Shown in pieces: positions 24,622 through 53,284 of a stretch of DNA of 64,000 nt (position 1 is the first letter of the stretch; every line of letters starts with the position of its first letter). This DNA is from Halorussus caseinilyticus (lineage in GTDB: Archaea > Halobacteriota > Halobacteria > Halobacteriales > Haladaptataceae): NCBI RefSeq assembly GCF_029338395.1, contig NZ_CP119809.1, positions 1,736,001-1,800,000 of the forward strand. The letters run 5' to 3'. The translations under genes and the position numbers were made by a program. Below the pieces are notes generated by a model. The model was given only the letters and a program-made list of their open reading frames with translations. It had not been told where the DNA came from and searched no databases.

Positions 24622-24717
24622 GCAGAAGGGCGGGAGTCGAACTCGCCGAGACGGTCCGGGCGTGCGGCGCTTCGCGCCGTTCCGGGCCTGCGACTCGTCT
24701 GCTCGACTCCCTTCTGC
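24622..24717 (-). ncRNA. Stem-closed element A copying a tRNA 3' end (putative structured RNA or att remnant)
   Basis: On the minus strand the ends GCAGAAGGG and CCCTTCTGC pair over 9 bases. Inside, AGTCGA/TCGACT, AGACG/CGTCT and CGGCGC/GCGCCG pair around a GAA loop, giving one long rod of about 96 bases. The 3' arm (TTCGACTCCCGCCCTTC) is nearly the same as the T-arm and acceptor of the tRNA-like sequence 68 bases away. It lacks a D-arm and an anticodon loop, so it is not a tRNA itself. Confidence 0.4.
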
Positions 24718-24785
24718 TCGTTCTGTGGCTCACAGTCTGGCGAGTACACGCTACGCGGTACTCGCCGATTTAGGAGCCACAGAAC
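24718..24785 (-). ncRNA. Stem-closed element B between the tRNA-like sequence and element A
   Basis: Twelve-base ends GTTCTGTGGCTC and GAGCCACAGAAC are exact reverse complements, and inside them GGCGAGTAC and GTACTCGCC form a second perfect 9-base stem. The element abuts the 3' end of the tRNA-like sequence directly. It could be a processing hairpin, a small RNA or a terminator-like structure. Confidence 0.4.
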
Positions 24786-24870
24786 GGAAGGGGCGGGAGT
24801 CGAACCACGCGAAGCCTGTAAGGCGACCACCGGGAGAGCCGGTGACGCTCTACCACTGAGCTACCCTTCC
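24786..24870 (-). tRNA. tRNA-like sequence, isotype unresolved (possible pseudo-tRNA)
   Basis: Minus strand, 85 bases. A perfect 7-base acceptor stem (GGAAGGG with CCCTTCC), TA at 8-9, a D-arm GCTC-AGTGGTA-GAGC and a T-loop TTCGACT are clear. The anticodon arm is abnormal: the best stem (CACCG/CGGTG) closes the loop GCTCTCC, which lacks the invariant U33, and the T-stem needs a bulged T to pair. A second hairpin, GCC-TTACA-GGC, sits in the variable region. It does not match a core haloarchaeal tRNA that I recognise. It may be a decayed or virus-derived tRNA. Confidence 0.45.
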
Positions 24871-52658: not shown

Positions 52659-53012
52659 ATGGATTTCGAAACCGCGTTCGACCTGTTGAGTAACGAACAT
52701 CGACGCCTCGTCGTCGCCGCCCTCGACGAGACTGGCCCAGTCTCCCGACGGCAACTGACGACCGAACTCCTCGCCCGCCTCGAAACCGGCGACTCCGACC
52801 GGACGACCCGGCGGCAGTTGCGCATCGCACTTCATCACAACCACTTGCCGCGCTTGGCCGACGCTGGCGTCGTGAAGTACGACGACGGAACGGTCGTTCC
52901 GTCGCCGAAGTTGAGTACAGTCCGCGACTGGCTAGAAGACGCGAACCGAGACGAAGACGCGCCGGAGACGGCCGCCAGTCTCGGCGACCACCTGACGGCG
53001 TTCTACGCGTAG
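52659..53012 (+). CDS. Winged-helix protein (DUF7344-like)
   Basis: 117 residues from MDFETAFDLLSNEHRRLVVA; an in-frame ATG 21 bases upstream is the alternative. FDLLSNEHRRLVVAALDE is the signature start of a haloarchaeal winged-helix domain, and RIALHHNHLPRLADAGVVKYDD contains the recognition helix and wing. Such genes are numerous in haloarchaea and most likely code for regulators with unknown targets. It ends 18 bases before a perfect 18-base-arm hairpin. Confidence 0.8.
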   Translation: MDFETAFDLLSNEHRRLVVAALDETGPVSRRQLTTELLARLETGDSDRTTRRQLRIALHHNHLPRLADAGVVKYDDGTVVPSPKLSTVRDWLEDANRDEDAPETAASLGDHLTAFYA

Positions 53013-53030
53013 AAGCCGTCGAGAACGGCG

Positions 53031-53068
53031 GCCGTCCGCACCTCCGGCACGCCGGAGGTGCGGACGGC
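53031..53068 (+). terminator. Near-perfect palindromic hairpin after the wHTH gene
   Basis: Arms of 18 bases (GCCGTCCGCACCTCCGGC and its exact complement) around AC, directly after the DUF7344-like gene. A T-run is not present on the + strand. The very stable, GC-rich stem would act as a transcription or RNA stability signal between the wHTH gene and the tRNA facing it. Confidence 0.55.
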
Positions 53069-53090
53069 GATTCGAGACGGAAACGAACTC

Positions 53091-53167
53091 AGGGGTAGGA
53101 TTTGACCCGAAGCCAGACATTCCTGCTCGCTACGCTCCGCGGGCCGTGACTGGCAGGGTCCAAATCC
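53091..53167 (-). ncRNA. Rod hairpin copying the 3' end of tRNA-Thr
   Basis: On the minus strand GGATTTGGACCC and GGGTCAAATCC pair with one bulge, then TGCCAG/CTGGC extends the stem. The 3' arm, GGGTCAAATCCTACCCCTG, closely resembles the T-arm and acceptor end of tRNA-Thr, GGGTTCAAATCCCACCCCTG, which lies 44 bases upstream. It mirrors element A at 24622-24717. Confidence 0.4.
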
Positions 53168-53182
53168 GACCGAACCGGTTCC

Positions 53183-53206
53183 GTCGCTGGCGACGTTGCC
53201 AGCGAC
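53183..53206 (-). terminator. Hairpin 3' of tRNA-Thr
   Basis: GTCGCTGGC and GCCAGCGAC pair perfectly (9 bases, 6-base loop) starting 4 bases after the tRNA 3' end. Likely a processing or termination structure. Confidence 0.45.
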
Positions 53207-53210
53207 AGGA

Positions 53211-53284
53211 AGCCAGGGGTGGGATTTGAACCCACGAACTCCCGATTACAAGTCGGGTGCTTGAACCGCCCAAGCTCCCCTGGC
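53211..53284 (-). tRNA. tRNA-Thr (anticodon TGT)
   Basis: Minus strand, 74 bases including the discriminator U. Acceptor GCCAGGG/CCCTGGC, D-arm GCTTGGGCGGTTCAAGC, anticodon stem CCCGA/TCGGG with loop CTTGTAA (U33, TGT, A37), and T-arm GTGGG TTCAAAT CCCAC. No CCA is encoded. Decodes ACA and probably ACG/ACU by wobble. Confidence 0.95.

Follow-up and report, generated by a model that had tools for sequence, protein, structure and literature searches.

Two tRNA loci share a rod that copies the tRNA end

The 3′ ends of tRNA genes are a classic doorway for mobile DNA, and a hairpin that ends in the tail of the tRNA in front of it raises the question of how the copy arose and what keeps it alike. 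We address this question for two such hairpins, here called rods, in a window of 64,000 nt of Halorussus caseinilyticus DNA (the whole stretch that was analysed). At the first locus the order on the minus strand is tRNA-Thr(UGU) (53284-53211), hairpin I (53210-53178) and the rod, whose extent we refined to 53090-53168. The tRNA, called by ARAGORN and matched by Rfam RF00005 at 59.5 bits, is the host gene and the source of the copied nt 53-73. Hairpin I, a small stem-loop immediately 3′ of the tRNA that was recognised by its fold (z -4.4) and by ortholog comparison, is probably a native trailer, since genome G013 retains it without the rod. The rod itself consists of a 5′ arm, GGATTTGGACCC (53157-53168), which sequence and a class-wide arm profile identify as roughly tRNA nt 53-64 in inverted copy; a core with a type II apex, TGCCAGTCACGGCCCG...GCAGGAATGTCTGGCTTC (53109-53156), defined by alignments and a covariance model match; and a 3′ arm (53090-53108), identified by sequence and flank scoring, in which the tRNA tail stands in direct copy with slight decay. 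Consistent with the original prediction that the hairpin end nearly copies the tRNA, the 3′ arm reads GGGTCAAATCCTACCCCTG (plus-strand positions 53108-53090) against GGGTTCAAATCCCACCCCTG in the tRNA, from which it differs by a single deletion and a single substitution. The fold energy of the rod is -36.4 kcal/mol (z -2.4 relative to dinucleotide shuffles), and the rod gave a covariance model match of 60.1 bits at 53093-53170, a score to be read with its membership of the training set in mind. It is among the more degraded rods of the family. Past the rod, a perfect 17-bp GC-rich palindrome (53005-53085; fold -49.5 kcal/mol, z -5.1) is possibly the terminator of the adjoining gene.

The same layout of gene, hairpin I and rod is found at the window's second locus, also on the minus strand. 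Its host is a tRNA-like gene (24785-24870; RF00005, 41.4 bits) that is kept across the genus and received no ARAGORN call in the source genome. Hairpin I (24720-24784), identified by sequence and fold, is followed by the rod, element A (24711-24625). The 5′ arm of element A, GGGAGTCGAGC (24701-24711), assigned by sequence, fits the unusual T-loop of the tRNA-like gene, GTTCGACTCC; the core has a type I apex (24643-24700; alignments and covariance model match); and the 3′ arm (24625-24642; sequence and flank scoring) is the tRNA-like tail in direct copy, ending in GTTCGACTCCCGCCCTTC against GTTCGACTCCCGCCCCTTC in the gene. With one base missing, this copy too is as had been proposed. Element A folds at -54.1 kcal/mol (z -3.5 relative to dinucleotide shuffles) and, as another member of the training set, matched the covariance model at 85.4 bits (24628-24714). 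Orthologs of the tRNA-like gene (L160-L173, L176 and L115) occur within the genus and also in a single genome from a neighbouring one. Their acceptor, D-arm and T-arm are near-constant and they have a long variable arm, while the anticodon loop differs in sequence and length. The gene may be a tRNA-shaped RNA without a decoding role.

Rods have sharp borders and a folded core

The rods are non-coding units of about 90-170 nt located at tRNA gene 3′ ends, in which an inverted copy of tRNA nt 53-64 is followed by a core and then by a direct copy of tRNA nt 53-73. It had been suggested that integration left an att copy that was then inverted; the tail is att-like, but it is a direct repeat, and it is a shorter copy of nt 53-64, forming the other arm, that is inverted. 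In 83 well-matched rods the tail copy starts at nt 53, the closing base of the T-loop, and stops at nt 73, the mature 3′ end: identity to the tRNA rises from 31% (nt 51) through 72% (nt 52) to 99% (nt 53), stays at 92-100% as far as nt 73 and drops to 64% one base further on. Complementarity of the 5′ arm to its own tRNA extends over nt 53-64, where the variable positions 57, 59, 62 and 64 match above shuffled pairings; from position 65 onward specificity was not above shuffled pairings.

The core common to the rods (AGTCRCA.GCCCG...GGA.CGTCT) shows compensatory changes between loci at its foot pairs and has a conserved T.T mismatch (86 of 92). On the tRNA-sense strand G.T mismatches in the arms outnumber A.C mismatches (55 vs 19), an excess that comes partly from shared descent and that suggests that this strand is the one that folds. 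Other cores occupy the place between the same arms at some loci. Reading by eye showed two G029 loci at which the core sits in reverse orientation between the arms; an automatic search with a strict pattern flagged none. Rods usually have the orientation of their tRNA. Hairpin I is also seen behind tRNAs without rods and is sometimes repeated 3′ of the tail copy, suggesting that it is probably a native trailer drawn into the unit. The type I core contains two similar bulges, a topology suggestive of a bulge-helix-bulge. We did not favour the rods as archaeal splicing substrates of this kind, as the central helix departs from the canonical 4 bp and the second bulge is missing from type II.

The rods form a class-wide family

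To quantify tail copies, the last 24 nt of each of the 45 tRNA genes were scored against 700 nt of flank. Scores of at least 15 were obtained downstream of 14/45 genes, with the copy starting 94-217 nt away, and upstream scores were never above 11. In a control haloarchaeon without rods, tail copies were found at 0/30 tRNAs, and in a non-haloarchaeon the three matches at 30 tRNAs each lay beside an apparent complete second tRNA gene, without an inverted arm. Tail copies therefore exceed chance. About a third of the tRNA genes in the H. caseinilyticus genome have a rod unit with a near-exact copy of the last 21 nt, and tRNA-Phe has two rods in tandem. One of the 14, tRNA-Leu(gag) (L048, G000:C1:1841772-1841856), shows a longer tandem duplication; the tRNA tail lies within it, and a rod core is absent.

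A covariance model trained on 11 rods of the source genome (cut-off E <= 1e-3) identified 16 rods there, all behind tRNA genes; 11 of these are the training sequences, and the other five include a newly detected rod behind tRNA-Trp. With the same model, relatives supplied independent matches: rods were found in 28/28 genomes of the family and in 273/294 genomes of Halobacteria (72 of the 78 genera sampled), and in none of 124 genomes from other classes of the phylum. In the distant genome G029 all 15 listed matches adjoin tRNA genes. Across the sampled genomes, rods cover 26 anticodons. The two loci in the window are thus cases of one class-wide family. The expectation that a shared arrangement implies a common process is strongly supported, as the arrangement recurs at about 15 tRNA genes of this genome and elsewhere in Halobacteria, and the idea of a family mimicking tRNA ends is right as a description. 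Since the pattern recurs 3′ of other tRNA genes and in relatives, it is neither absent elsewhere nor unconserved.

Related cores also occur away from tRNA genes. A type II rod core is contained in a branched, dispersed element roughly 220 nt long whose ends are usually GGGGCCGCCCGCTCGC...GCGAGCGGGCGGGGGC (L298-L304; near G000:C1 406317, 464034, 472217, 711658, 1404370, 1878787, 1982555 and 2274144). The copies at 464034 and 472217 (L298) are near-identical and face each other in opposite orientation, 8.2 kb apart. Rfam did not recognise the element in the six loci scanned. On Haladaptatus plasmids (L306:2998-3034 and L307:2998-3034) the type I apical hairpin is found alone, without a tRNA arm, and two of the three plasmid regions read adjoin a gene for an OB-fold protein. 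With only the apical hairpin present, we did not count these matches as rods and regard them as a separate use of the motif.

Rods follow their own tRNA and come and go

Tail copies match their own tRNA at 20.6 of 22 positions, compared with 14.9 (sd 0.2) for shuffled pairings, and 5′ arms at 10.1 of 12, compared with 8.8 (sd 0.08). The match persists among variants of one isoacceptor (z 7.3), and it does so too when only the 9 terminal nt of the tail copy, which lie mostly outside the rod stem, are counted (z 6.8). These z values overstate certainty, because loci were picked by rod matches and related sequences were counted as independent; the direction is clear. Where the T-loop of a tRNA deviates from that of relatives, as in tRNA-Leu of G019 and tRNA-Arg of G011, both rods behind it follow, including their arms. 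Tandem arrays reach five units behind tRNA-Arg of G022, in the order A B B A A′ and with exact tails. The rod behind tRNA-Thr is present in 4/18 genomes of the genus and absent from the other 14, and the tRNA itself is identical over 73 nt in most of them.

Recombination at the T-loop as a possible origin

The layout, boundaries, tRNA-specificity, arrays, presence or absence, and covariation described above come from comparison; as the process driving them, recombination rather than selection on RNA appears most likely. We put a probability of about one half on the rods being small non-coding repeat units that were accreted and homogenised via DNA recombination at the tRNA T-loop. A unit would join the tRNA gene at the T-loop, with one junction at base 53, leaving the tRNA intact and a tail copy downstream. 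From then on the tail copies would be where units are gained, lost or reshuffled, and exchange there would keep the copies equal to the tRNA. Joining of this kind would account for copies that begin abruptly at nt 53, for the tRNA staying intact, for direct tails and arrays, and for gain and loss, and also for core inversion between inverted arms and for tails that match the tRNA. Given the matching inverted arm and a core that folds and covaries, joining may take place at a folded strand, as it does in integron attC sites. It is unlikely that the likeness extends to a haloarchaeal folded-strand recombination akin to that of integron cassettes, with entry at the T-loop, rods as the folded sites, gene-less units stacked, shuffled and lost, and arms kept matched.

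Counting against recombination, we found neither a recombinase nor an excised circle or a fresh insertion. Nor is a complete tyrosine-recombinase core site apparent, as the sequence left of nt 53 does not match the T-stem. The exact tails could also be maintained by conversion or selection, and foot-pair compensation and the G.T excess suggest that it is the folded sense strand that counts, and an RNA role would explain this too. The rods would then be functional RNAs, co-transcribed with the tRNA and acting in its maturation or regulation, with selection on the RNA keeping arms and tails. The compensatory foot pairs with their conserved T.T mismatch, the sense-strand excess of G.T over A.C and the usual orientation along the tRNA are in line with such a role, but the rod is absent behind the same tRNA in most relatives and from some haloarchaea entirely, the last 9 nt of the tail copy track the tRNA while mostly off the stem, and the core is inverted at two loci and swapped for other cores elsewhere. 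We therefore consider functional RNA unlikely as the main explanation.

Tandem arrays, inverted and direct copies of one T-arm, and the occasional repetition of hairpin I are also what replication slippage or template switching at the T-arm palindrome might produce, creating and amplifying hairpins with neither a dedicated enzyme nor a function. This seems improbable given that many tRNA loci and genera have one conserved core in common, that the borders at nt 53 and 73 are sharp, and that 124 non-haloarchaeal genomes of the phylum had no rods despite the same T-arms. Very unlikely, in our estimate, is the explanation offered by the original prediction, that ordinary viruses or integrative elements targeting tRNA genes left the rods as att scars. 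Integration at tRNA genes typically leaves the tRNA 3′ end as a direct repeat (PMC8371274), and haloarchaeal proviruses leave truncated tRNA copies (PMC3119063), but the copies here are about 100-200 nt and not kilobases apart, one core serves many isoacceptors, and arrays reach five units. Searches for the core gave no exact match in IMG/VR and, with blastn, none in phage records. That different tRNA loci have a core in common, that units stand in tandem and that they are too short to hold a gene all speak against rods being simple prophage att remnants. Reverse transcription of mature tRNA was disfavoured, as the copies read are not followed by CCA, and target-site duplication by an ordinary transposon would produce the tail copy yet leaves the tRNA-specific inverted arm unaccounted for.

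Whatever the driving process, class-wide copying of exactly nt 53-73 together with a matching inverted arm provides hundreds of natural replicates in which to study it. The tail copies could also mislead haloarchaeal tRNA annotation and att-site detection.

Comparison with known systems

We found no published description of the rod family in openly licensed papers, and no Rfam family was assigned to the rods in the window, in eight loci or in the Thr region. In tRNA-targeted integrative elements with archaeal tyrosine recombinases, the att site repeats the 3′ part of the tRNA in direct orientation, with the intact tRNA on one side and a partial copy on the other (PMC8371274). The rods share this direct repeat, but they are units of about 90-170 nt that occur in tandem and have an extra inverted arm and a common folded core. 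Their repeats usually lie too close together, at about 100-200 nt, for an integrase and cargo genes between them.

Integron attC sites are imperfect hairpins with a variable apex, conserved mismatches, inverted end arms and a GTTRRRY core site, and form tandem arrays; IntI recombines them as a folded strand. The rods resemble them as imperfect folded hairpins with conserved mismatches and inverted ends; unlike attC, no cargo was seen in the rods, and the 3′ arm, GTTCRAN, has C as its fourth base and so departs from the R′ core GTTRRRY. REP/BIME-type repeats and MITEs are short imperfect palindromes in many copies. The rods are likewise short, multicopy palindromes, with a related core also in the dispersed element, but their tRNA-specific arms set them apart from REP.

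The closest layout is that of E. coli rtT (rttR, RF00391), of which K-12 has three tandem units behind tRNA-Tyr (tyrT-tyrV). RF00391 gave three matches in E. coli as a positive control, and none in the window at the gathering threshold or when the eight loci and the Thr region were scanned with permissive E-values. As in the rods, tandem units behind a tRNA gene combine an inverted pairing arm (GGGGAAGGAT), a core and a direct tail copy (AATCCTTCCCCCACCACCA... / AATCCTTCCCC...). The E. coli copy runs from about nt 58 past the 3′ end into the trailer, whereas the haloarchaeal copy covers nt 53-73, and the haloarchaeal family has a different core sequence, occurs on 26 anticodons and is class-wide in Archaea. 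With a shared layout and no sequence match, rods and rtT look as if they were made the same way and are apparently unrelated. Overall this comparison suggests that the E. coli rtT repeats are one instance of a wider phenomenon with multiple origins.
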